Source: Actinomycetospora chiangmaiensis DSM 45062
GTDB taxonomy: Bacteria; Actinomycetota; Actinomycetes; Mycobacteriales; Pseudonocardiaceae
Direction of reading: 5' to 3'
DNA length: 64,000 nt
Assembly (NCBI RefSeq): GCF_000379625.1
Contig: NZ_KB903218.1
Location: 124,001 to 188,000, forward strand
A program made the translations under genes and the position numbers. The notes beneath the pieces are model-generated. The model did no database searches. It was not told where the DNA came from and was given only the letters and a program-made list of their open reading frames with translations. Every line of letters starts with the position of its first letter. The stretch's first letter is position 1. Below are positions 7,038-63,647 of this stretch, piece by piece.

Positions 7038-7739
7038 ATGACGCGTCCCGCCGCCCGGACCCCGTCCCGACGACGGGTGCTCGCCGGTCTCGGCCTCGGC
7101 GTCCCGGCCCTGCTGCTGGCCGCCGCCTGCTCGGACGCCACGGCCGCCCCGGTCCCCGGCGTCCGGCTGCACACCGACTGGACCCGCCGGCCCGCCGGCA
7201 CCGTCCCCGTCCTCGGGGACGACGGCCTCGCCTTCCGGCTCGCGCAGGAGGGCGGGGCCCCGCCGCCCGCCGTCGTCGGGAATGCCCTGCGGGCGGCGAT
7301 GCCGGACCGGACCTCGTCGTCCTCGCTCACCCAGGAGATGCGGTCCCCGGTCCGTCGGCTCGGCGCGACCGTCGCGTTCGGGCCGGGCACGGAGGCGGGT
7401 GCGTTCGTGCTCGCCGCGTGGACCGGCGTCCCCGCCGTGCACGCCTCCTGCCACCTCGTCCTCACCCCGCGGCAGTGGCTCTACGGCGTCATCGAGAACC
7501 AGGAGGCGTTGCGCGTGATCGCCCAGGACACCTTCCCGACCCCCGTGCTGCCGGACACCCCGGTGACGGTGGACGTGACCCTCGCGGGCCGCGTCGCGAC
7601 CCTGCGGCTGCCCGGGGCGTCGGCCACCGTCGACGACCCGCGCATCGCCTCCACGGTCGCCACCGCCCCGAGCTGGGGCTTCTACCGCAGCGGCCCCGGC
7701 GGGGCCGACGTCGCGCTGCTGCAGAGCTGGGCGGGCTGA
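7038..7739 (+). CDS. Exported lipoprotein with twin-arginine-like signal, unknown function
   Basis: I do not recognise the domain. The N-terminus has PSRRRVLAGLGLGVPALLLAAAC: a twin-arginine-like motif, a hydrophobic stretch and a lipobox ending LAAAC, so the 233-residue protein is probably exported and lipid-anchored. The mature part resembles a beta-rich, lectin- or laminin-G-like fold (alternating hydrophobic strands and VDVTLAGRVATLRLPG), which would suit polysaccharide binding, but this is inference. The ATG lies 1 nt after the stop of the gmd copy, and the next gene starts 4 nt downstream, so it belongs to the polysaccharide transcript. Confidence 0.7.
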   Translation: MTRPAARTPSRRRVLAGLGLGVPALLLAAACSDATAAPVPGVRLHTDWTRRPAGTVPVLGDDGLAFRLAQEGGAPPPAVVGNALRAAMPDRTSSSSLTQEMRSPVRRLGATVAFGPGTEAGAFVLAAWTGVPAVHASCHLVLTPRQWLYGVIENQEALRVIAQDTFPTPVLPDTPVTVDVTLAGRVATLRLPGASATVDDPRIASTVATAPSWGFYRSGPGGADVALLQSWAG

Positions 7740-7743
7740 GCGC

Positions 7744-8841
7744 GTGACGGCCCTGCTGCAGGTCCTCCCCACCTACGACCCGGCCTTCGGCGGCCCGGTG
7801 TCCGCGGCGCTCGGCGTCTCGGAGTCCTACGAGGGCGTCGACGGCGTCAGCCTGACGACGATCGGCTGCGGCCCCGCCGGCGCCGGCTGGAGCCGCCACG
7901 ACACCGTCTCGCGCCGGGCGTTCGCGCCACCGGTGGCCCCGCACGTGCTCTCGGTGTCGCCCGGCCTGCTCGCCTGGCTCGTCCGCCGGCTGCGTCGGTT
8001 CGAGCTGGTGCACGTGCACTACAACCGCGGCCTCGTGATGGTCTGGGTGCCGCTGCTCGCCCGCCTTGCCGGGGTGCCCTACGTGCTGCAGACCCACGGA
8101 ATGTGCCGGCCCTGGCGCGGGCCCCTCGCCCTGGTCGACCGGGTCTTCACCCGGCCCGCCCTGCGGCACGCCCACGCCGTGTTCGTCCTCGGCGCCGCCG
8201 AGCGCGACCAGATCCTCGCCGCCGTGCCCACGGCCAACGTGGTCGTCGTGCACAACGCGGTCCGCACGCCCGCGGCCCGCGTCCCGTCCGCCACGGTCCG
8301 CACCGGCGGGCCCCGGCTGCTGTTCTGCGCCCGGCTCCACCCGCGGAAGGGGCTGACCCGGTTCCTCGACGTCGTCGAGCGGCTCGCCCCCCTGCACCCC
8401 GGGCTCGAGGGGCACGTGGTCGGACCGGACGAGGGCGCGCTCGCGGCCGCGCAGGAGCGGGTGCGCGACGCCGGGCTCCCGGTCACCTTCCACGGCGGGC
8501 TCGACCGCGACGAGGTCGACGCCTGGATGGCGCGCTGTGACGTGCTGCTGCACCCGGCCCCGCGGGAGCCGTTCGGGATGTCGATGATCGAGGCCTTCGC
8601 GGCGGACCTGCCCGTGGTCGCGGCCGCCTCCAGCGAGCTCGCGGGCGTGTTCGCCGCCGAGGGGGCCGCGCTGCTGCCCGACGACGACGCGGTGGACGCG
8701 TGGGCCGACGCGGTCCGCCGCGTGCTCGACGAGCCCGGGACGGCCGACGGGCTCCGGACGGGCGGCCGCGCCGTGCTGGACCGGCACTTCTCGCGGGCGT
8801 CGTTGACGCGGACCCTGGCGGGCGTCGTACACGGACCGTGA
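7744..8841 (+). CDS. Glycosyltransferase family 4
   Basis: It is a 365-residue GT-B glycosyltransferase. The N-terminal half has YVLQTHGMCRPWRGPLA, the acceptor-side region. The C-terminal half has FCARLHPRKGLTRFLDV and the family-4 E-x7-E signature EPFGMSMIEAFAADLPVVA, where the glutamates bind the nucleotide sugar. GTG start 4 nt after the preceding stop. It is the last gene of the plus-strand polysaccharide set; the 159-nt gap that follows contains the start region of the TPR gene. Linkage specificity is unknown. Confidence 0.9.
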   Translation: MTALLQVLPTYDPAFGGPVSAALGVSESYEGVDGVSLTTIGCGPAGAGWSRHDTVSRRAFAPPVAPHVLSVSPGLLAWLVRRLRRFELVHVHYNRGLVMVWVPLLARLAGVPYVLQTHGMCRPWRGPLALVDRVFTRPALRHAHAVFVLGAAERDQILAAVPTANVVVVHNAVRTPAARVPSATVRTGGPRLLFCARLHPRKGLTRFLDVVERLAPLHPGLEGHVVGPDEGALAAAQERVRDAGLPVTFHGGLDRDEVDAWMARCDVLLHPAPREPFGMSMIEAFAADLPVVAAASSELAGVFAAEGAALLPDDDAVDAWADAVRRVLDEPGTADGLRTGGRAVLDRHFSRASLTRTLAGVVHGP

Positions 8842-53422: not shown

Positions 53423-54451
53423 ATGCAGCGCGTCGCCGTCCTGACCGAGCCGGACCACGTCGTCCTGGAGGACCGGGAGATCCCGGAACCGGGTCCGGGG
53501 CACGTCCAGGTGCAGGTACGCGCGGTCAGCGTGTGCGGCTCGGACGTCCACTACTACGACCACGGGCGCATCGGCGGGTTCGTCATGCACGCCCCGCTCG
53601 TGCTCGGGCACGAGACGGCGGGCGTGGTGACCGCTCTCGGGCCCGGGGTGACCGCACCCGTCGTCGGGACCCGGGTGGCGGTGGAGCCGCAGGAGGAGTG
53701 CGGGCAGTGCGCGCAGTGCCGGCAGGGCCGCTACCACCTGTGTCCGTACATCCAGTTCTTCGCGACGCCGCCGGTCGACGGCTCGTTCGCCGAGTACGTC
53801 GTGGTGCCCGCCCACCGGGCGCACCCGGTGCCGGACACCCTGTCCGACGAGGCCGCCGCGCTCATCGAGCCGCTGTCGGTGGCACTGCACGCGGCGGCGA
53901 AGGCCGACATCGGCCCGGGCTCACGCGTGCTGGTCAGCGGGGCCGGGCCCGTGGGACTGCTGTGCCTGCAGGTGGCGCTCGCCCGCGGGGCGTCGGCGGT
54001 CGTGGTCACCGACGTCATGGCGCTGCGCCGGGAGGCGGCGACGGAGTACGGCGCGACCGCCGTCGTCGACGCCAACGACCACGACGCGGGCCTCGCCGTC
54101 GTCAACGCGGTGCTCGGGCAGGCCGACGTGGTGCTGGAGTGCACCGGCGTGCAGCCCGCCATCGACCTCGCGGTCGCGGCCACCGCGCCGGCCGCGACCG
54201 TCGTGCTCGTCGGGACCGGGGCGACCGTGACCCTGCCGCTGGACGTCGTCCAGGCCCGCGAGCTCGTGGTGAAGGGGACCTTCCGGTACGCCCACGTCTA
54301 CCCGGCGGCGATCGACCTGGCGGCCACCGGCCGGATCCGGCTCGACGACATGGTGACCTCGCACCACCCGCTCGAGGACGCCGTCGGCGCCCTCCTCGCG
54401 GCCCGCCGGGACCCGATGGCGCTCAAGGCCGTGGTGCACCCGTCGTCGTGA
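53423..54451 (+). CDS. Zinc-dependent polyol (sorbitol/xylitol) dehydrogenase
   Basis: The 342-residue medium-chain alcohol dehydrogenase is close to sorbitol/L-iditol 2-dehydrogenases. The catalytic zinc site is SVCGSDVHYYDHGRIGGFVM and LGHETAGVV; the structural zinc Cys are in ECGQCAQCRQGRYHLC; the NAD motif is VLVSGAGPVGLLCLQVALA. It oxidises a sugar alcohol to a ketose. Its 3' end overlaps the convergent MFS gene by 29 nt, so both C-termini share the same DNA. Confidence 0.92.
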   Translation: MQRVAVLTEPDHVVLEDREIPEPGPGHVQVQVRAVSVCGSDVHYYDHGRIGGFVMHAPLVLGHETAGVVTALGPGVTAPVVGTRVAVEPQEECGQCAQCRQGRYHLCPYIQFFATPPVDGSFAEYVVVPAHRAHPVPDTLSDEAAALIEPLSVALHAAAKADIGPGSRVLVSGAGPVGLLCLQVALARGASAVVVTDVMALRREAATEYGATAVVDANDHDAGLAVVNAVLGQADVVLECTGVQPAIDLAVAATAPAATVVLVGTGATVTLPLDVVQARELVVKGTFRYAHVYPAAIDLAATGRIRLDDMVTSHHPLEDAVGALLAARRDPMALKAVVHPSS

Positions 54452-55631
54452 CCCGGCGGCCACGTGCCACCACCGCGAGCGAGACCAGCGCGAGGCCGCC
54501 GAGGACCCCGAACAGCACGCTGTAGGACACGGCGAGGGAGGCCACGGCGAGCACGGCGGGAACGATGAACCCGACGTAGGCGAGCGCGTAGAACACGGCG
54601 GTCAGCCCGGCGAGGTGGCGCGGGGCGGCCAGGCGCTGGACCTCGGCGAGGCCGCTGACCAGCGCGAAGCCGTAGCCGACGCCGAGGACGACGGCCGCGG
54701 CGATCGCGAGCACCACGCCCGGGGTCGCCGCGGTCCACGCCGCGAGCGCCATCCCGACGACGGCGAAGAGCGCGGCGACCATGCCACCCCGGGCGTCGTC
54801 GAACCCGAGCCGCTTCGCCAGCGACTGGGCGCCGACACCGGCCACGAGGGTCACCGCGGTCATGAGGGCCGCGAACGCGACGGCGTGGCCGGGGACGGCC
54901 GCGGCGACCAGGGACGGCAGCACCGCGTAGGCGATCCCCGCGCAGGTGAACACCCACGGCGCGACGGGTGCGACGACGGTCCAGAACTCGCGGTGCCCGC
55001 GGACGGGGATGCGGAGGTCGTCGCGGAGGCGTCCCGACGTGGGGGCGGCGAGCGTCTCCGCGGTCCGCACCGCGAGCAGGCCCAGCGGCACCCCGACGAG
55101 CACGTGCACCGCGTAGGAGAGGACCTCCGGGTACGGCGCCCACTGGGCGAGCACCCCGGCGGCGGCGGGCCCGAGCAGGAAGCCCAGGGTCAGCGACATG
55201 GCCGCGCGCGAGGCGCCGCCGGTGCCGGAGAGCTCCTTGATCCAGGTGGAGCCGACGGCCATCGCGACGCCGAGCGCGAGGCCCGCGAGCACGCGGCCGA
55301 GGAAGAGCAGCGGCACGGTGTCGCCGCCGAGGGCCAGCACCAGGCTGCCGGCGATCGCGAGCGGCGGCGCGGCGAGCATGAGCGGCTTGCGCCCGAACCG
55401 GTCGGACAGCGGGCCGCCGACGAGCATGCCGGGCACGATCCCGAGGACGTAGGCGCCGAGCAGCACGTCGACCGTCGCGGTGGAGAAACCGCCGAGCTCG
55501 CGGTACATCACCATCAGCGGCGTGAACTGGTTGCCGCCCCACGCGACCACGAAGAGCGCCAGCCCCACGGGGAGCCAGCTGGTCGAGCGCCCGACGACGG
55601 GTGCGTCCCGGTCCTCCAGGGTCGCGGTCAT
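54423..55631 (-). CDS. MFS transporter (sugar/drug type)
   Basis: A 402-residue, 12-helix permease with GGPLSDRFGRKPLMLAAPPLAIAG (loop 2-3 motif) and GRVLAGLALGVAMAVGSTWIKELSG. The neighbouring polyol dehydrogenase and GntR regulator suggest uptake of a sugar, polyol or organic acid, but the short loops also fit a drug exporter. ATG 55631 overlaps the GntR stop by 4 nt (ATGA), so both form one unit. The last codons overlap the polyol dehydrogenase gene tail to tail. Confidence 0.87.
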   Translation of the reverse strand: MTATLEDRDAPVVGRSTSWLPVGLALFVVAWGGNQFTPLMVMYRELGGFSTATVDVLLGAYVLGIVPGMLVGGPLSDRFGRKPLMLAAPPLAIAGSLVLALGGDTVPLLFLGRVLAGLALGVAMAVGSTWIKELSGTGGASRAAMSLTLGFLLGPAAAGVLAQWAPYPEVLSYAVHVLVGVPLGLLAVRTAETLAAPTSGRLRDDLRIPVRGHREFWTVVAPVAPWVFTCAGIAYAVLPSLVAAAVPGHAVAFAALMTAVTLVAGVGAQSLAKRLGFDDARGGMVAALFAVVGMALAAWTAATPGVVLAIAAAVVLGVGYGFALVSGLAEVQRLAAPRHLAGLTAVFYALAYVGFIVPAVLAVASLAVSYSVLFGVLGGLALVSLAVVARGRRVTTTGAPRP

Positions 55632-56287
55632 CGGGTGCGTCCTCCTCGGTGGGTGTCGTCCAGGTGGGTCACCAGCGCGGCGCGGAAGCCCTCGACGTCG
55701 GCCGCGGCGATGAGGTCGCGCAGGGTCCGGTGCTCGGCGAGCACCGACTCCGCGGCAGCGCTCCGGCCCCGGACGGACTCGGCGGTCATGCGCTGCTGGC
55801 GCTCGCGCAGGCTGCGGTAGAAGCCGGTGAGCAGCGAGTTCCCCCCGGCGTCGGCGATGAGCCGGTGGAACTCGGCGTCCGCCGCGACGAAGGCCGGCAG
55901 GTCGCCGTCGTCGTGGGTCTTGCGCTGGACCGCGATGGCGTCGTCGAGCTCGCCGACGAGGGCGTCGAGATCGTGCGGCCGGGCGGCGACGTCGGCGACG
56001 GCGTGCGTCTCGAGCAGGGCCCGGGCGTCGAGCACCTCGTCGATCTCGCGCGGGGCGACCGGGACCACGAGCGCGCCGCGCTTGGGGAACAGCCGCAGCC
56101 ATCCCTCGACCTCGAGGCGCAGGAACGCCTCGCGGACCGGGGTGCGCGACACCGTGAGCACGGCCGCGATCTCGCCCTCGCTCACCATCCGGCCGCCCTC
56201 GAGCTCGCCGGTCAGTACCCGTTCCTTGACGTGGCGGTAGACGAGGTCGGCAGCGGAGCACGCAGAGGCACCACTGGTGGACGACAT
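55628..56287 (-). CDS. GntR-family regulator, FadR subfamily (FCD domain)
   Basis: The 219-residue regulator has a winged-helix N-terminus (ADLVYRHVKERVLTGELEGGRMVSEGEIAAVLTVSRTPVREAFLRLEVEGWLRLF...) and an all-helical FCD ligand domain with metal-binding-type residues in FVAADAEFHRLIADAGGN. It is followed by, and probably controls, the MFS transporter. TAGCTT at 56294-56299 is 6 nt from the ATG, and the adjoining TGGATACAAGCT resembles a GntR/FCD operator half-dyad, so self-regulation is likely. Confidence 0.9.
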   Translation of the reverse strand: MSSTSGASACSAADLVYRHVKERVLTGELEGGRMVSEGEIAAVLTVSRTPVREAFLRLEVEGWLRLFPKRGALVVPVAPREIDEVLDARALLETHAVADVAARPHDLDALVGELDDAIAVQRKTHDDGDLPAFVAADAEFHRLIADAGGNSLLTGFYRSLRERQQRMTAESVRGRSAAAESVLAEHRTLRDLIAAADVEGFRAALVTHLDDTHRGGRTR

Positions 56288-56293
56288 GGATAC

Positions 56294-56299
56294 AAGCTA
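56294..56299 (-). promoter_or_regulatory. -10 box of a leaderless promoter for the GntR gene
   Basis: On the minus strand TAGCTT, GTATCC, then ATG. The surrounding CTTGTATCC resembles part of a GntR-family site, so the regulator could bind over its own promoter. Confidence 0.45.
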
Positions 56300-56351
56300 G
56301 CCGGGATGATCGATTGGTAGCAACCGAACGTGGTCGGGTGCACACGGTCGT

Positions 56352-56384
56352 CCGGTGGCGGCGACGGGCCGTCGCCGCCACCGG
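56352..56384. terminator. Perfect 14-bp hairpin at the end of the GlcG/HbpS gene
   Basis: CCGGTGGCGGCGAC (56352-56365) pairs with GTCGCCGCCACCGG (56371-56384), loop GGGCC. It lies just past the stop (on the minus strand) of the gene at 56392. Confidence 0.7.
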
Positions 56385-56391
56385 CGGGGGC

Positions 56392-56826
56392 CTACGCCCC
56401 TGTGCGCGCCACCAGCCCGGCCGCCTCGATCCCGGCGACGACGGCCTCCTCGTCGGCGAGGGAGGCGTCGCCCGACGCGCCGGCGGCGCCGATCACCTCG
56501 CCGTCCGCGTCGACGATGAAGACCCCGCCCGGCACCGAGAACACCTTCCCACCCGCGAGGGCGGCGACCGAGGTGAAGAACTCGGGGGAGTCGGACGCGC
56601 GCTGGGCGATCGCGCGGCTGTCCATCATCAGGCCGATGACGCCGTGGGCCTTGGCGATCGCGACGTCGGGTCGCAGGAAGCCCGACCCGTCGGCGCGGCC
56701 GAGCGCGACGAGGTGGCCGCCGGTGTCCAGGACCGCCACGGTGAGGGGCTTGTAGCCCGCCGACTCGCCGTGCTTGAGCGCCTCGGCGACGATGGTGCGG
56801 GCGTGCTCGTAGGTCAGGGAGCTCAT
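56392..56826 (-). CDS. GlcG/HbpS-family (haem-binding-like) protein
   Basis: The 144-residue protein has the family features YEHARTIVAEALKHGESAGYKPLTVAVLDTGGHLVALGRADGSGFLRPDVAIAKAHG and a C-terminal VPGGVFIVDADGEVIGAAGASGDASLADEE. GlcG/HbpS proteins form octamers; HbpS binds haem and senses redox stress, others are of unknown use near glycolate genes. ATG 56826 has AAGGAAGGG upstream. A gene for a FAD glycolate-type oxidase lies about 5 kb away, not adjacent. Confidence 0.88.
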   Translation of the reverse strand: MSSLTYEHARTIVAEALKHGESAGYKPLTVAVLDTGGHLVALGRADGSGFLRPDVAIAKAHGVIGLMMDSRAIAQRASDSPEFFTSVAALAGGKVFSVPGGVFIVDADGEVIGAAGASGDASLADEEAVVAGIEAAGLVARTGA

Positions 56827-56893
56827 GGCCCTTCCTTTCCCCGCGACGCGCCGCGTCATCCACCGTCCCGCGAGCCGGGCCGACTCCGGGAGA

Positions 56894-56899
56894 TACCGT
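56894..56899 (+). promoter_or_regulatory. -10 box of the leaderless promoter of the SpoIIE/CarH-like/STAS operon
   Basis: TACCGT, 7 nt, then ATG 56907. It sets the start of the phosphatase gene and probably drives the three-gene unit. Confidence 0.5.
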
Positions 56900-56906
56900 G
56901 GGACGC

Positions 56907-58574
56907 ATGGACCCGACGATGCCGGCGGGGGCTCCCACGCCGACACCGCCGAGAGGTCTGCGCAGCCTGCAGGCACGGATGCTGGCCGGGCTGACCGAGG
57001 CCGTGCTGGTCACCGGCCCCGTCCACCCCGGGGGCGAGGAGATCGTGCACGCCGCGAACCCGGCGGCCGCGCGGCTGCTGCCGGGCCTCGTCGTCGGGAC
57101 GGTCGTCGCGGACGCGGGGTACGACGCCCTCACCGACGCGCTCGTCCGGGCCCGGCCGGGCTTCGAGGCCGAGATCGACGGCCGCGTCCTCGCGGCGCGG
57201 GCGGTGCGGCTCGACGAGGACGGCGCGGTGGTCGACGCCCTCACCTGCTGGTACCTGCGTGACGTCACCGAGGAGCGCCGGGGGTCGGCCTCGCTCGTGC
57301 GCGCCCAGGCCCGGGCCCAGTTCCTCGCCGAGGCCGGCCGTGCACTGCACGGCGTGCTCCACCTCGACCGCACCCTGCGCACCGCCGTCTCCCTCGCGGC
57401 GGGCGTCCTCGCGCCGACCGTGCTGGTGATGCTCGCCGACGGCTCGGACACCGTCCGGTGGGCCCGCGCCGACGGCGGGGAGAGCCGGCCGCACACCGGG
57501 GAGCTGACTCGGACCGCGCTGCGCTCCGCCCCCCGGCTGCACGAGGCGCTCGTCGGCCGCGCGCCCGTCGACCCGTGGGTGACCGTCGAGCTCGCCGAGC
57601 TGCCGGTCTGGAACGAGCGGCCGGCGGGCGAGGTCGTGGTCGTCCCGGTGCCCGGCGCCCTCGTGCAGGGCGTGCTCGTCCTGGTGGGCCCGGCGGCCGA
57701 CGCCGACGCCCTGCCGCTGGGCGAGGAGTACGCCGTCCGCGTCGGCACCGCGCTCTCGGCCGCCGCGCTCTACCGCGAGCAGGCCCACCTCGGGCACGTG
57801 CTGCAGGCGAGCCTCGAACCGCCGCCCCTGCCCTCCGACACCGCGGGCGGCCTGCTCGTCGGCAGTGCGTACCGCCCCGCCCGGGAGAGCCTCCGGGTGG
57901 GCGGCGACTTCTACGAGGTGCTGCCCCGCACCGACGCCGGCCGCACCCCGTTCCTGCTGGGCGACGTGTGCGGCAAGGGCATCGAGGCCGCCGTGCTCTC
58001 CGGCCGCGTCCGGCAGTCGCTGCACGCGCTGCGACTCGTCGAGCAGGACCCGGCGACCCTCCTGCGCCTGCTCAACGTCGCCCTGCTCGATGCCGCCGAC
58101 CTCGACGCCCCCGGCACCCCGGGGGCGGCGGTGGCCATGCCGCGCTTCGCCACGATGGTGCTCGGCGACGCGGCGGGCCTTCCCGACGGCGGGTCGCGGC
58201 TGCGGCTGGCCACGGGCGGCCACCCGCCGCCCTACGTGCTGCGGGCGGACGGTCGCGTCGAGGAGGTCGACGTCGCGGGCTCGCTCGTCGGCGCGCTGCG
58301 GGACGCCGAGGTCGGCGCCGCGGAGGTCGTGCTCGCCCCGGGCGACACCTGTCTGCTCTACAGCGACGGTGTCACCGAGGCGCGTGGTGGGCCCACCGGC
58401 CGCGACTTCTACGGCGAGGAGCGCCTCGAGGCCGCGCTCGCCGGCTGCGTCGGGGCCCCGCCCCAGGTGATCTGCGAACGCGTGCTGCAGCTGCTCGGCG
58501 GCTGGCTGGGCGGGCGGGACCACGACGATGTCGCGCTGCTCGCCCTGCAGGCGCCCACCGGGAGGCGCGCGTGA
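56907..58574 (+). CDS. SpoIIE/PP2C-type phosphatase with PAS- and GAF-like sensor regions
   Basis: The 555-residue protein is a partner-switching phosphatase that would dephosphorylate a STAS antagonist. Residues about 20-130 look PAS-like (LTEAVLVTGPVHPGGEEIVHAANPAAARLLP) and 150-310 GAF-like (AAGVLAPTVLVMLADGSDTVRWARA). The PP2C domain has SAYRPARESLRVGGDFYEVLP and FLLGDVCGKGIEAAVLSGRV with Mn-binding Asp, LATGGHPPPYVLRADG and the C-terminal RDHDDVALLAL. GTGA overlap couples it to the cobalamin-domain gene. No anti-sigma kinase lies in this unit. Confidence 0.92.
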   Translation: MDPTMPAGAPTPTPPRGLRSLQARMLAGLTEAVLVTGPVHPGGEEIVHAANPAAARLLPGLVVGTVVADAGYDALTDALVRARPGFEAEIDGRVLAARAVRLDEDGAVVDALTCWYLRDVTEERRGSASLVRAQARAQFLAEAGRALHGVLHLDRTLRTAVSLAAGVLAPTVLVMLADGSDTVRWARADGGESRPHTGELTRTALRSAPRLHEALVGRAPVDPWVTVELAELPVWNERPAGEVVVVPVPGALVQGVLVLVGPAADADALPLGEEYAVRVGTALSAAALYREQAHLGHVLQASLEPPPLPSDTAGGLLVGSAYRPARESLRVGGDFYEVLPRTDAGRTPFLLGDVCGKGIEAAVLSGRVRQSLHALRLVEQDPATLLRLLNVALLDAADLDAPGTPGAAVAMPRFATMVLGDAAGLPDGGSRLRLATGGHPPPYVLRADGRVEEVDVAGSLVGALRDAEVGAAEVVLAPGDTCLLYSDGVTEARGGPTGRDFYGEERLEAALAGCVGAPPQVICERVLQLLGGWLGGRDHDDVALLALQAPTGRRA

Positions 58575-59602
58575 CCGCTCCGACGACGTCGACGACCACC
58601 CTCCGCGCGGAGTACCTCGACCGCCTCGCCGCCTCCGACGAGGAGGGCGCGATCGCGGTCGCCCTCACCGCGCTCGACGCCGGCCTGGACGTCGAGGACG
58701 TGCTGCTCGACGTCGTCGCCGGGGCGCAGCGCGAGGTGGGCGAGCGCTGGGCGGCCGGCACGTGGACCGTCGTGCAGGAGCACATCGCCACCCACATCTC
58801 CGAGCGCGTCGTCTCGGCCGTCACCCGGCACCGCCCGGCCGACCCGCCGACCGGCGTCGGTCGGATTGCCGTCGCCTGCCTCGACGGCGAGTGGCACGCC
58901 CTGCCCGCCCGCCTGCTCGCCGAGGTGCTCGCCCGGCACGGGTGGGAGGTCACCTTCCTCGGCTCCAGCGTGCCCGCCGCCCAGCTCGCGGTGCATCTGC
59001 ACGAGACCGGGCCCGACGTCGTCGCGGTCTCCAGCTCGCTGCCCTCCCGCCTGCCGGCGGCCCGCCGCATGGTCGAGGCCTGCCGCGCGTCCGGCGTCCC
59101 GATCGTCGCCGGCGGCGCCGCGTTCGGTCCGGCCGGGGAGTGGGCCACCGCGGTCGGCGCCGACGGCTGGGCCCCCGACGCCCGCGCCGCGGCCGCCCTG
59201 CTCGCGGGCACCCTGCCCCGGCGCGACGACGGGCGCGTCGACGACGCCTCCCGCGAGGAGGAGTCCCTGCTCCGGACCCGTCGTCCGGAACTGGTCGCCT
59301 GGCTGGCCGCGCGCGTGCGGGCCGGGTACGGCACCGACCCGCTCTCCGACGACCAGCTGACCGACGACCTCGGCCACCTCGTCGACTTCCTGGCCGCCGC
59401 CGTCTACGTCGACGACCCCGGGCTGCTCGCCCGCTTCGTGCGCTGGGTCGGCACCGTCGCCGTGCCCGGCGGGCTGACCCGCGAGGAGCTGCGGCCCGCG
59501 GTCGACGACCTCGCCGCCCGCCTCGCCGACTCGCCCCGCACGGCCACGCTGCTCCGCTCCGAGCCCGTGCAGGAGGCGTGTTCCGGGACGGGCGTGGCAT
59601 GA
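58571..59602 (+). CDS. CarH-like cobalamin-binding sensor protein without DNA-binding domain
   Basis: The 343-residue protein carries the two-part cobalamin fold of B12 photoreceptors. The helical cap has W60-x9-E70-H71 (ERWAAGTWTVVQEH), the exact Wx9EH signature of CarH. The Rossmann part has His109 in DGEWHALP (the lower axial ligand position), then AVSSSLPSR and IVAGGAAFG. CarH has a MerR-type DNA-binding head; here there is none. Instead, a 125-residue helical C-terminus (ELVAWLAARVRAG, LVDFLAAAVYVDDPGLLARF and LTREELRPAVDDLAARL) resembles RsbRD-type N-terminal modules. The gene overlaps the SpoIIE and STAS genes by 4 nt, so a light- or B12-gated partner switch is inferred. Confidence 0.85.
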   Translation: MTAPTTSTTTLRAEYLDRLAASDEEGAIAVALTALDAGLDVEDVLLDVVAGAQREVGERWAAGTWTVVQEHIATHISERVVSAVTRHRPADPPTGVGRIAVACLDGEWHALPARLLAEVLARHGWEVTFLGSSVPAAQLAVHLHETGPDVVAVSSSLPSRLPAARRMVEACRASGVPIVAGGAAFGPAGEWATAVGADGWAPDARAAAALLAGTLPRRDDGRVDDASREEESLLRTRRPELVAWLAARVRAGYGTDPLSDDQLTDDLGHLVDFLAAAVYVDDPGLLARFVRWVGTVAVPGGLTREELRPAVDDLAARLADSPRTATLLRSEPVQEACSGTGVA

Positions 59603-59952
59603 GCCCGGAGGCGCCGGAGTTCGCGGTCCGCACCGAGAAGGAACAGGTGCCCGACGTCGGGCCCCGGGTCCTCCTGGTCGTCGCGGGCGACATCGACTAC
59701 ACCCACCACGAGGCGCTCGAGGCCGCGATCGACCACGAGATCGCGCGGGCGAACGCGCCGCTCGACCTCGTCGTCGACCTCGCCGCCGTGCCCTACTGCG
59801 ACTCCTGCGGCATGCGGGTGCTGCTCGGGGCCGCACAGCGCATCGACGCCGCCGGCGGGTCGTTCGGGCTGCGCGGCGTCCACGGTCAGGTCGCGCGGGC
59901 ACTGCGGCTCACCGGCCTGGACCGGGTGCTCGGCGTCGCCGGGTCGGGTTGA
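59599..59952 (+). CDS. STAS-domain anti-sigma-factor antagonist
   Basis: The 117-residue STAS protein is the likely substrate of the SpoIIE phosphatase. It has VLLVVAGDIDYTHHEAL, VVDLAAVPYCDSCGMRVLLGAAQRI with the phosphorylatable Ser69, and VARALRLTGLDRVL. The ATG overlaps the preceding stop (ATGA). In its unphosphorylated form it would capture an anti-sigma kinase and free a sigma factor; that kinase is not in this operon. Confidence 0.92.
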   Translation: MSPEAPEFAVRTEKEQVPDVGPRVLLVVAGDIDYTHHEALEAAIDHEIARANAPLDLVVDLAAVPYCDSCGMRVLLGAAQRIDAAGGSFGLRGVHGQVARALRLTGLDRVLGVAGSG

Positions 59953-59985
59953 ACCGGCCGGACGACGGGTGATCTAGTCCGACGT

Positions 59986-60801
59986 ATGACCACGTTGCCC
60001 GAAACCCTGGAGACCCTCGCCGTCGACCGGCCCGCCGAGCACGTCGCCCGGGTCTCGCTCGTGGCGCGCGCGATGTCGCCGACCTTCTTCGCCGAGCTGC
60101 CCCGGGTCATGGCGGCCCTCGACGCCGATCCCGACACCCGCGCGATCGTCGTCACCGGCGTCGACGGCCGGTTCTCCTACGGCCTGGACCTGATGGCCGC
60201 GGCCGGCTCGCTCGGTGGCGTGCTGGGCGATCCGAGCGCGAAGAACCGCGAGTGGTTCCTGCGCCACGTCCGGGAGCTGCAGGGCTCGATCACCTCGGTC
60301 GCCGACTGCCCCACCCCGACGGTCGCCGCGATCGAGGGCTGGTGCGTCGGCGGCGGCGTGGACCTGGTGACCGCCTGCGACGTGCGCCTCGCGAGCGCCG
60401 ACGCGCTGTTCTCGGTGCGCGAGGTCCGCATGGCGATGGTCGCCGACATCGGGTCGCTGCAGCGTCTCGTCGGCATCGTCGGCGACGGGCACCTGCGTCA
60501 GCTCGCGCTCACCGGCGACGACGTCCCGGCCGCGGAGGCCGAGCGGATCGGTCTGGTCAACCGGACCTTCGGGTCGGCCGAGGAGCTCGCCGCGGGGGCC
60601 CTCGAGCTCGCCGGCCGCATCGCCGCCAACTCCCCGCTCGTCACCCGGGGCATCAAGGACGTGCTCGACGCCGAGCGTGCGCCCCGCGTCGAGGCGGGCC
60701 TGCGCTACGTCGCGGCCTGGAACGCGGCGTTCCTGCCCAGCGCCGACCTGCAGGAGGCGTTCACCGCGTTCGCCGAGAAGCGGCCGCCGAAGTTCGCCTA
60801 G
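59986..60801 (+). CDS. Enoyl-CoA hydratase/isomerase, dienoyl-CoA isomerase-like
   Basis: A 271-residue crotonase-fold enzyme. FSYGLDLMAAAGSL and PTVAAIEGWCVGGGVDLVTACDVRLAS form the oxyanion hole. Glu146 in VREVRMAMVAD and Asp154 in DIGSLQRL match the acidic pair of delta3,5-delta2,4-dienoyl-CoA isomerase, used to break down odd double bonds. ATG is preceded by TAGTCC with 5 nt spacing. Its stop overlaps the convergent kinase gene by 3 bases (CTAG). Confidence 0.9.
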   Translation: MTTLPETLETLAVDRPAEHVARVSLVARAMSPTFFAELPRVMAALDADPDTRAIVVTGVDGRFSYGLDLMAAAGSLGGVLGDPSAKNREWFLRHVRELQGSITSVADCPTPTVAAIEGWCVGGGVDLVTACDVRLASADALFSVREVRMAMVADIGSLQRLVGIVGDGHLRQLALTGDDVPAAEAERIGLVNRTFGSAEELAAGALELAGRIAANSPLVTRGIKDVLDAERAPRVEAGLRYVAAWNAAFLPSADLQEAFTAFAEKRPPKFA

Positions 60802-61964
60802 AACGTCCCGGCGGGCCCCGACGGGCCGGGCACCCGGACCACGGTGCGCGTCCCGGGGCCCGTCGTGTCCAGGGAGAAGGTCCCGCCGACCCCCTCGACG
60901 CGCGCCCGGGTCGAGGCCAGCCCGATGTGACCGTCGGCCAGCCGGGTCGCGAGCACCGCGGGGTCGATCCCGACCCCGTCGTCGGCCACCTCCAGCGACC
61001 GTCCCCCGGGACCGTCGTGCAGCGCGACCGTCACGTGCGCCGCCCGGGCGTGCTTCGCGACGTTCGTCAGCAGCTCACGGGCCACCCCGAACAGCAGCCG
61101 GTCGTGCGGCCCGGACGGCAACGTCCCGCCGTCCACGGTCACCGCGAACCCGGCCTGCGCGGCCGCCCGTTCCGCGACCCGCCGCACCGCCACCACGAGC
61201 CCGGCCTCGTCGAGCACGTAGGGGTGCAGCGCGAACACCACCTCGCGGATCTCCCGGATGCCTGCGCGCAACGCGTCGTCGGCGGCCTCGGCGCCGTCCA
61301 GCTCGTCGAGCTCCTGGCCGGCCACGAGCAGCGTCTGCAGCGCGTGGTCGTGCAGGTCCTCGGCGAGCCGTCGTCGCTCCCGGGCCTCGGCGTCGAGCGC
61401 CTGGGCGGTCAGCGCGTCGGCGTCGGCGAGCAGGGCACGGATGCGGGTGGCCCGGCGGGCGAGGACCACCGACAGCAGGAACGTCGCCACCGCGACGAGC
61501 GTGAGCACCGCGGCCTCGGCGGCGAGGGTGGTGACCTCGATCGCGGGCCGTTCGATCGCCGCCGTGAGGACGAACGACGCGAGGGTCGCCACCCCGACCG
61601 CCGCGGAGAGCGCGGGCCGGTACCGGAACGCCGCCATCACGGGGATCACGACGTAGGCCAGCGTCGGCAGGGTCCCGCCGCCCCCGGCGAGCAGGGCCAG
61701 GACCGTGATCGCGACGAGGTCGGTCGTCGTCGCGACCAGCCCCGTCGTCGGTGCCACCGGCCGCCGCGTCACGCGCGTGAACCAGCCGACGGCGAACAGC
61801 CCGTAGGCGGCCAGCACCACCCAGAACCCGACGCCCTCCACACGCGTCTGGTCGAGCGCGCCCGTCACACCGAGCAGCGCCACCAGGCCGAACCGCAGCA
61901 GGCTCGTCGTCCGCGAGGCCTCGGCCTGGAACTGCGCGAGCGCCCGCTCGGCCGGCGTGCTCAC
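60798..61964 (-). CDS. Sensor histidine kinase, NarL-type (HisKA_3)
   Basis: The 388-residue kinase has five or six N-terminal helices (residues 20-170) as a membrane sensor without a clear external domain, then the HisKA_3 dimerisation site RERRRLAEDLHDHALQ with His205 as phosphoacceptor, and a HATPase with RELLTNVAKHARAAHVTVAL (N box), VADDGVGIDP and HIGLASTRARVEGVGG. GTG start overlaps the response-regulator stop by 4 nt. The signal is unknown. Confidence 0.92.
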   Translation of the reverse strand: MSTPAERALAQFQAEASRTTSLLRFGLVALLGVTGALDQTRVEGVGFWVVLAAYGLFAVGWFTRVTRRPVAPTTGLVATTTDLVAITVLALLAGGGGTLPTLAYVVIPVMAAFRYRPALSAAVGVATLASFVLTAAIERPAIEVTTLAAEAAVLTLVAVATFLLSVVLARRATRIRALLADADALTAQALDAEARERRRLAEDLHDHALQTLLVAGQELDELDGAEAADDALRAGIREIREVVFALHPYVLDEAGLVVAVRRVAERAAAQAGFAVTVDGGTLPSGPHDRLLFGVARELLTNVAKHARAAHVTVALHDGPGGRSLEVADDGVGIDPAVLATRLADGHIGLASTRARVEGVGGTFSLDTTGPGTRTVVRVPGPSGPAGTF

Positions 61965-62608
61965 TCCAGCAGCCCGCGCCGCATCGCCTCGGCCACGGCC
62001 GCCGCCCGCTCGGTGACCTCGAGCTTCTCGTACATCCGCTGCACGTGGGTCTTCACGGTGCTCGGCGCGACGTAGAGCTGCTTCGCGATCGCCGGGGTCG
62101 TCAGTCCCTGCGCCATGAGCCGCAGGATCTCGGTCTCCCGCTCGGAGAGTGCCGGTCCTCGGTCGGCCCGGCGGTGCCGGATCTCCCCGGCCAGCCCGGC
62201 GGCGAGGTCCGCGGGCAGCACGGTGCCGCCGTCGGCCGCCGTCCGGACCGCCTCGACCAGTTCCCGACGACGGGTCTCCTTCGGCAGGTAGCCCGCCGCC
62301 CCCTCCTCGAGGGCGCCGTACACGAGCGTCGGGTCGGTGAACGCCGACAGCACGACGATGCGCGTGGCCACGCCGTCGCGCGCGGCGCGTCGGACGATCT
62401 CCGTCCCGTCGAGCCCGGGCATCCGGTGGTCGACCAGCGCCACGTCGGGGCGGTGCTCGACGATGGCCGCCAGCGCGGCGTCCCCGTCCTCGGCCTCCCC
62501 GACGACGTCGATCCAGCCGCTGCCGGTCAGCGCGCGGACGACGCCGTCGCGGTACATCTCGTGGTCGTCCGCGACGACCACCGTGATCTTCTCGCGGCTG
62601 TCACGCAC
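61961..62608 (-). CDS. NarL/FixJ-family response regulator
   Basis: A 215-residue regulator with a receiver domain (VVVADDHEMYRDGVVRALT, Asp60 in ALVDHRMPG, LPKETRRRELVEAV) and a LuxR helix-turn-helix (LSERETEILRLMAQGLTTPAIAKQLYVAPSTVKTHVQRMYEKLEV...). It pairs with the overlapping kinase gene. GTG 62608 overlaps the end of the upstream hydrolase gene by 8 nt, so the hydrolase, regulator and kinase may form one operon. Confidence 0.93.
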   Translation of the reverse strand: MRDSREKITVVVADDHEMYRDGVVRALTGSGWIDVVGEAEDGDAALAAIVEHRPDVALVDHRMPGLDGTEIVRRAARDGVATRIVVLSAFTDPTLVYGALEEGAAGYLPKETRRRELVEAVRTAADGGTVLPADLAAGLAGEIRHRRADRGPALSERETEILRLMAQGLTTPAIAKQLYVAPSTVKTHVQRMYEKLEVTERAAAVAEAMRRGLLE

Positions 62609-63647
62609 TCGCCCAGAACTCCGTCGCGACCTCGAGCCAGCGCTCGGCGGCGTCGACGTGGGGACCGTGACCGGATTCGGCGAACATCTCCGTCCGCGCC
62701 CGGCCGCCCGCCTGCTCGTAGCGGGCGAGCACCTCGCGGATCTGCGACACCATCGGCTGCGGGGGGAACACGTCGTCCCCGGGCCAGCCCGGCACGATCC
62801 CGACCTGCCCGAGGGTGCCGAGCTCCAGCATCGAGCCGTCGGCCACCACCACGTCCCGGGTGCCGTGCGTCCACAGCACGGGCGGCTTCGGGTCCAGCTC
62901 GGGCAGCCACGACCAGTCGCAGTACTTCGGCGACAGCGCGTTCAGCAGGCCGCGCGTGCCGGGGGCGGCGCCGGGCCAGTTCTCCGAGGTCGTGGCGTCG
63001 CCGGGGTAGCCGTCGTCGCCGATCTGCGACAGCAGGATCTCGTCGACGAGCAGGTCCTCGCGCTCCTGGGGCAGCCGGAAGTCGGGTGACCAGTAGGTGC
63101 CGGCCATGACGTTGCGCGGGCTCAGCGCGTCGTCGCCGGAGCGGTCGCCCTCGCGCAGCTTCGCGACGAACTGCTGGTTGGCGACTCCCGCGCCCGACCC
63201 GGCGAAGTCCGCGAAGCACGGCCGCCCGTCCGCGAGCGTGCCGCCGTAGCCGTGCGGGCTGACGGGATCGAGGAACAGCAGGCTCGCCACCGGCCGCTGC
63301 CGCGCGACCAGCGCGATCGCCGCGCCCGCCGTCGACCACCCGACGAGGTGCGGGCGCTCGATCCCGAGGGTGTCGAGGTAGGAGACGAGGTCGTCGGCCC
63401 AGTCGCCGAGGCCCCGGGTGGCGTCGATCGGGGCCGGTTCCGTGCGCCCGAAGCCGCGCATGTCGGGGGCGAGGAACCGCCACCGGTCGCTCGCCGGCGA
63501 CATCAGGTGCTCGAAGAACCGGCCGGTCGACAGGTTGCCGTGCACCAGCACGACCGGCTCGCCGTCCGCCGGGCCCGACGTCAGGTGGTGGATGCGGATA
63601 CGGGCCTCGACGGTCCCGGCCTCGACACCGGGGAGCAGCTCACTCAT
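62601..63647 (-). CDS. Alpha/beta hydrolase
   Basis: The 348-residue hydrolase has VVLVHGNLSTGRFFEHLM (oxyanion loop), the nucleophile Ser105 in LVGWSTAGAA and the His in AESGHGPHVDAAERW, with an insert of about 100 residues between as a lid. It could be an esterase, lactonase or epoxide-hydrolase-like enzyme. TAGCGT lies 10 nt upstream of the ATG on the minus strand, leaving almost no leader. It is the first gene of the unit that includes the two-component pair. Confidence 0.88.
   Translation of the reverse strand: MSELLPGVEAGTVEARIRIHHLTSGPADGEPVVLVHGNLSTGRFFEHLMSPASDRWRFLAPDMRGFGRTEPAPIDATRGLGDWADDLVSYLDTLGIERPHLVGWSTAGAAIALVARQRPVASLLFLDPVSPHGYGGTLADGRPCFADFAGSGAGVANQQFVAKLREGDRSGDDALSPRNVMAGTYWSPDFRLPQEREDLLVDEILLSQIGDDGYPGDATTSENWPGAAPGTRGLLNALSPKYCDWSWLPELDPKPPVLWTHGTRDVVVADGSMLELGTLGQVGIVPGWPGDDVFPPQPMVSQIREVLARYEQAGGRARTEMFAESGHGPHVDAAERWLEVATEFWASA

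Follow-up and report, generated by a model that had tools for sequence, protein, structure and literature searches.

The closest described relatives of the system considered here are the photocobilins, photosensory units that join a B12-binding part to a globin. In the sections of the 2024 photocobilin paper on which we draw (PMC10979010), SasPcob of Saccharothrix syringae (PDB 8J2W, 8J2X) has Trp61, Glu71, His72 and His108 as its cap, dimer and axial residues, holds biliverdin by Asp270 and Trp296, extends His137 to the biliverdin bound in the partner subunit, and has a water/hydroxide-ligated light state. AbDPcob (PDB 8J2Y) carries the same kind of unit fused to a diguanylate cyclase; light raises the activity of the attached enzyme, His replaces the Asp, and weak bilin binding in AbPcob is attributed to loss of that Asp. 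The same sections predict potential partners of SasPcob in Saccharothrix, namely STAS, SpoIIE and PP2C-like phosphatases, and suggest a stress-response role, so the idea of such a partner link is not new. Here we describe a three-gene cassette in a 64,000-nucleotide stretch of Actinomycetospora chiangmaiensis DSM 45062 (contig NZ_KB903218.1, positions 124,001 to 188,000; hereafter the window), in which a photocobilin gene lies between genes for a SpoIIE-type PP2C phosphatase and a STAS anti-anti-sigma factor. From its sequence and models, we consider it fairly probable that this operon is a light-input module acting through a partner switch.

Two further systems frame the comparison. CarH of T. 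thermophilus (5C8A/5C8D) has the same cap and Rossmann photosensor for adenosylcobalamin (AdoCbl), with the W-x9-EH motif and lower axial His, but it carries a MerR head that is absent here and lacks the additional globin domain. The RsbU/RsbV/RsbW-SigB and RsfB/UsfX-SigF switches likewise pair a PP2C phosphatase with a STAS antagonist bearing a conserved Ser; unlike them, the cassette has a separate photocobilin gene between phosphatase and STAS and no kinase in the operon. The abstract of the 2022 photoglobin paper by Schneider et al. reportedly proposes that B12 domain and photoglobin together form a light-sensing bundle for signal transduction. Among the matches listed for open-licence PMC papers, none described an experimental test of the phosphatase/STAS link in its title or the start of its abstract.

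Identity of the middle protein

A phmmer search of all PDB sequences placed SasPcob (8j2w, 8j2x) first, over residues 12-325 (E 3e-73), with AbPcob (8j2y) at 3e-39 and CarH (5c8a) at only 1.1e-5. An AlphaFold2 model built from 39 sequences (the window's protein and 38 relatives) had a predicted local distance difference test score (pLDDT) of 92.4 and a predicted template modelling score (pTM) of 0.89. Foldseek with this model returned 8j2w first (template modelling score, TM-score, 0.86/0.90; 46% identity), followed by AbPcob (30% identity) and then a MerR-family B12 domain, while for the best CarH entry, 5c8d, the TM-score normalised to query length was 0.51. The four-helix cap and the Rossmann B12-binding domain are present both in Pfam (B12-binding_2, PF02607, 1.1e-13; B12-binding, PF02310, 2.2e-19; both over cut-off) and in the model. 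The C-terminal globin-like bilin domain is present as well, as the alignment to 8j2w/8j2x extends to residue 325 and the Foldseek match spans 337 columns. Judged by sequence and fold, the middle protein is near certain to be a photocobilin. Among genome contigs, its closest named relatives belong to Actinomycetospora, with identities of up to 90%.

The sequence-only reading had described this protein as a CarH-type photoreceptor without the MerR head and with an RsbRD-like helical tail. Much of the first part stands: this is an AdoCbl photosensory core sharing the cap/Rossmann B12 fold of CarH, its gene is cotranscribed, by its place in the operon, with those of a phosphatase and a STAS antagonist, and a MerR DNA-binding domain gave no Pfam match at E<=1, the model starting with the cap helices. 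However, modelling identified SasPcob and not CarH as the nearest structure, and the difference between their E-values excludes a plain CarH relative. The photoglobin tail, which makes a second, red-absorbing chromophore possible, had been missed. The RsbRD family has no Pfam match at E<=1 in this protein, and in alignment the tail corresponds to the globin of photocobilins; it is therefore a bilin-type globin domain, as the PDB alignment, model and Foldseek agree, and the RsbRD assignment was wrong. That guess nevertheless holds a grain of truth, as photoglobins are homologous to the RsbR globin according to the portion of PMC10151467 used here.

The residues expected of a B12 light sensor are in place. 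W60, E70, H71 and H109, correctly located from the letters beforehand along with S69 of the STAS protein, align with Trp61, Glu71, His72 and His108 of SasPcob, and D266 and W292 align with Asp270 and Trp296 (alignments read by eye, the PDB chain of SasPcob being numbered six below the paper). The Asp and Trp of the bilin pocket are thus kept, and Q138 stands in place of His137. The published light-response signature, given as GxxW, EH, GxxH and GxxxP in the part of PMC11796333 consulted, is complete in the window's protein (G57/W60, E70/H71, G106/H109, G131/P135) and in 102 of 130 aligned loci. The residue after W60 is A61. CarH uses His132 beside Trp131 for bis-His ligation, and with Ala beside W60 we would not expect the bis-His adduct that CarH forms in the light.

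Conservation of the B12 core, which had been proposed as a check, was absolute: W60, E70, H71, H109 and also G57 were identical in 130/130 aligned loci, a set that includes the window's own locus (L006) and at least five pairs that are probably one locus in two collections (L007/L036, L008/L037, L010/L039, L011/L047, L023/L107). Alignment A1 was made from 25 of the 29 family loci other than the window's own, A2 from 38 of 80 loci and A3 from 20 of 79 phosphatases. The bilin pocket is more variable. W292 was kept in 129 of 130 loci, the remaining one being a gap, and D266 in 27/30 family loci and 80/80 genome loci, versus 3/20 distant family loci, where position 266 was Cys in eight and Val in seven and position 138 was Arg in 17. 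Among the 80 best-scoring genome loci, position 138 was Gln in 12 of 14 from Actinomycetospora and His in 64 of 66 others. A sister group (L157-L173, e.g. L158, L166, L168-L171) mostly has the same operon, with Cys/Val for the biliverdin Asp, mostly Arg138, and unchanged B12 core residues; its members could be bilin-less or bind another ligand.

Features of the cassette and its neighbours, in positions of the window
Feature	Coordinates	Strand	Remarks
SpoIIE-type PP2C phosphatase, 555 aa	56907..58574	+	alternative GTG start at 56898
Photocobilin, 343 aa	58571..59602	+	GTG start; B12 part about 8-212, globin-like bilin part about 225-328
STAS anti-anti-sigma factor, 117 aa	59599..59952	+	ATG start; predicted phospho-acceptor S69
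HbpS-like gene	56392..56826	-	divergent from cassette; PF03928 match; neighbour, Actinomycetospora loci only
Histidine kinase and LuxR-type response regulator genes	60798..62608	-	downstream
Alpha/beta hydrolase gene	62601..63647	-	

Conservation of the operon and its partners

Frames, coordinates and overlaps of the three genes were verified, adjoining genes sharing four bases (GTGA at phosphatase/photocobilin, ATGA at photocobilin/STAS), and their Pfam families were those claimed from the letters. The phosphatase matched SpoIIE (PF07228, E 2e-43) and the 117-residue protein STAS (1.5e-16) and TIGR00377 (1.7e-20). The PP2C domain occupies about residues 331-548 of the phosphatase and includes D334, D353 and D541, which we take to be its metal site and which were kept in 97, 96 and 97 of 97 aligned phosphatase relatives. 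Its N-terminal half had no Pfam match and may be PAS/GAF-like, going by the strand-helix order in a model less certain overall than that of the photocobilin (pLDDT 84.0, pTM 0.57). This model had the RsbU/RsbW-domain protein Rv1364c (3ke6) as top PDB match, and the STAS protein had RsfB (8ih8, 1.1e-7). Of 82 downstream STAS genes, 80 keep S69, presumably the phosphorylatable Ser.

The suspected linkage to spoIIE and STAS genes extends well beyond the window. Of 80 genome loci, 79 had a same-strand PP2C gene directly upstream; 70 had a STAS gene directly downstream, and all 70 of these carried the full trio. Corresponding counts for 20 distant loci (32-47% identity, all from the window's own family) were 18, 12 and 12. 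Here "directly" denotes the same strand and at most 600 bases between domain edges, and both partners were detected with hidden Markov models (HMMs) that started from the window's own proteins and were extended on these loci. The 80 loci are the best-scoring of 472 relatives found in a scan of species genomes, so near kin are favoured; they span Actinomycetospora, Mycobacterium, Streptomyces, Nonomuraea, Nocardia, Amycolatopsis, Saccharothrix, Actinoplanes and others. As the window's genome has just eight SpoIIE matches, about seven genes, in 5.86 Mb, repeated adjacency of this kind is far beyond chance.

The cassette also occurs on plasmids. A plasmid search gave 18 records with a match, and of five inspected, three Streptomyces plasmids carried the trio and one record had no adjacent STAS gene. 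Three Streptomyces plasmids have a MarR-family regulator after STAS (L184, L186, L187, about 7470-8000); in the part of PMC6739363 consulted, the light-inducible carotenoids of Corynebacterium glutamicum are under the control of a regulator of the MarR type. On another Streptomyces plasmid, a photocobilin-type gene lies upstream of gas vesicle genes (L185 5974-9943). In Streptomyces fungicidicus, an adenosylcobinamide amidohydrolase gene is found just upstream of a phosphatase-photocobilin pair (L188 3312-5841).

As the CarH-type core here shares an operon with a phosphatase and a STAS antagonist, partner switching is its likely output, and candidate genes for the components missing from the trio were found. 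An HATPase_c_2 gene lies directly after STAS in L154 and L155 (two genomes, one genus) and directly before the phosphatase in L078, as confirmed by Pfam. With an HMM built here, kinase-like genes were detected in the examined flanks of 35 of 100 loci, although one of its seven seeds (L117) was in the wrong frame and Pfam confirmation covers only L154, L155 and L078. The window's genome has 17 HATPase_c_2 matches over cut-off, including one gene on contig C12 directly before a SigB/SigF/SigG-family sigma gene; these two are candidate partners. A CobA/CobO/BtuR adenosyltransferase, needed for AdoCbl, is encoded as well.

We propose a mechanism on this basis. Green light would break the Co-C bond of photocobilin-bound AdoCbl, while red light would act on the same bond through bound biliverdin, where biliverdin is present. 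With the adenosyl group lost, the photocobilin dimer would fall apart, and the phosphatase would then dephosphorylate Ser69 of the STAS protein. The STAS protein could in turn capture an RsbW/UsfX-type kinase encoded elsewhere, freeing a SigF/SigB-family sigma factor. By analogy with AbDPcob, on which the direction of effect is modelled, light would activate. Going by sequence, both light control of a sigma factor by the cassette and green-light sensing in the window's strain are likely.

Several observations weigh against this proposal. The trio encodes no kinase or sigma factor. A downstream STAS gene was not detected in 10/80 genome loci and 8/20 distant loci, nor an upstream phosphatase in 1/80 and 2/20, and the plasmid relative next to gas vesicle genes has these instead of the partners. 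The window's genome, a 97.6%-complete assembly, has no PF01126 heme oxygenase match, and Gln replaces the biliverdin-contacting His of SasPcob. Given the last two points, the red channel may be absent in the window's strain, and red-light sensing there is doubtful.

Bilin supply and alternative readings

Genome content outside the cassette bears on whether biliverdin is used. Across 150 family genomes, 36 had a photocobilin checked to be of the Asp266 type, and PF01126 was found in 29 of these versus 45 of 95 without photocobilin, defined as no match below about 1e-30; 44 of the heme-oxygenase-negative genomes were assigned as the remainder. Shuffling labels within genera gave p about 0.001, or 0.002 with the Asp-less group joined to the comparison. 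The 36 genomes derive from 40 by removing four, all heme oxygenase-positive, in which the Asp was unclear or the gene broken, so that this revision works against the association. With all 40 typed by E-value, 33 had heme oxygenase (within-genus p 0.0006, genus-level p 0.036). Where the Asp-less type was the only one, 8 of 15 genomes had heme oxygenase, no different from photocobilin-free ones (within-genus p 0.33), and pooling all photocobilin types gave 41/55 vs 45/95. This association fits biliverdin as a natural ligand of the Asp type.

The window's genome is among seven of the 36 Asp-type genomes that have no PF01126 match, whereas all five sampled genomes of the same genus carry one. In one of these five (G075, the only one used for flank comparison), the sole PF01126 match lies in a 3.4-kb stretch (L175 3327-6699) that is missing from the window's genome. 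The flanks of that stretch lie 38 bases apart inside contig C31 (191694-196115), so the absence there is not a contig gap. This argues for a narrower form of the light-input reading, compatible with it, in which the globin is structural and bilin-free, green light acts via B12, and the output is still the phosphatase and STAS protein. Replacement of His by Q138 points the same way, as does the absence of the Asp from 17 of the 20 distant loci in a sister group that mostly has the same operon. D266 and W292 are kept, however, and with Gln in 12 of 14 Actinomycetospora loci, Q138 accompanies heme-oxygenase-bearing genomes too. Biliverdin could also come from outside or from another enzyme, the PF14518 gene of the window's genome being a candidate source. 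On balance, we regard a B12-only sensor in this strain as quite possible, while leaning somewhat the other way.

An alternative output is a stressosome-like unit, in which the globin would play the part that its non-heme counterpart has in RsbR, and signalling would run through a larger RsbR/RsbS/RsbT-type assembly and not directly to the phosphatase. The photoglobin-RsbR globin homology and the kinase-like genes near 35 loci are consistent with it. On a Streptomyces xanthophaeus plasmid, genes in the order STAS - ATP-binding - STAS also diverge from the trio (L184 2588-4027), and we take them to resemble an RsbR/RsbT/RsbS set. Yet the examined flanks of the 14 Actinomycetospora loci hold no further STAS or kinase match, a Pfam scan of six genes flanking the cassette in the window gave none except a sensor histidine kinase, and the photocobilin has no Pfam match to a STAS domain of its own. 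We therefore consider such an assembly unlikely. Least probable of all is a cobalamin-status sensor that reports the AdoCbl pool and not light: AdoCbl is a ligand of this same fold, AbDPcob is less active with just AdoCbl bound than in the apo form (PMC10979010, in the sections used), and one relative has the amidohydrolase gene just upstream, but the full light-response signature is kept and the D266 type co-occurs with heme oxygenase, which a B12 gauge would not need.

Neighbouring genes and wider meaning

An HbpS-like gene lies beside the cassette in 13 of 14 Actinomycetospora loci, the 14th (L043) being cut short upstream, and in 0 of 86 others. Streptomyces HbpS binds heme and aquo-cobalamin according to the part of PMC4991794 consulted, and the sole solved-structure match of the HbpS-like protein is EfgA; a tetrapyrrole role is only a lead, and the gene is a candidate member of the cassette at most. 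The downstream pair of histidine kinase (HATPase_c) and LuxR-type response regulator recurs near the cassette in only 3 of 14 Actinomycetospora loci (E 1e-40) and was not counted in it, nor was a downstream enoyl-CoA hydratase (5 of 14, E 1e-40). A relative of the alpha/beta hydrolase gene is downstream of the cassette in 13 of the 14. At E 1e-40, a search with six flanking genes found none of them in the 86 loci outside Actinomycetospora. An Rfam scan of 54000-62700 gave no match, and neither did a sigma-70 promoter/terminator scan, which says little in such GC-rich DNA.

The window's photocobilin thus resembles SasPcob in its two-domain architecture, its W/EH/His B12 residues, its bilin-pocket Asp and Trp, and the type of partners predicted for it. 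It differs in Q138 and in a genome lacking a PF01126 match, and is known from sequence and model. To the earlier prediction, sequence comparison would add how far the operon is conserved, versions of it that include a kinase gene, the association with heme oxygenase within genera, and the Asp-less sister group. More broadly, and tentatively, since we would not yet favour it over its negation, the phosphatase - photocobilin - STAS cassette could be a self-contained unit, widespread in Actinomycetota, that feeds light signals to alternative sigma factors. It would come in two versions, one biliverdin-coupled (Asp266, mostly His138, with heme oxygenase) and one B12-only (mostly Arg138, Cys/Val266), with the window's strain, lacking PF01126, as a possible intermediate.

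The conserved operon makes the 2024 partner prediction directly testable. If the light-input reading is true, the reach of B12 photochemistry would extend beyond the DNA binding of CarH and the fused enzyme of AbDPcob to sigma factors controlled through protein-protein contact, and soil actinobacteria would have stress or developmental programmes that take green/red light as an input.

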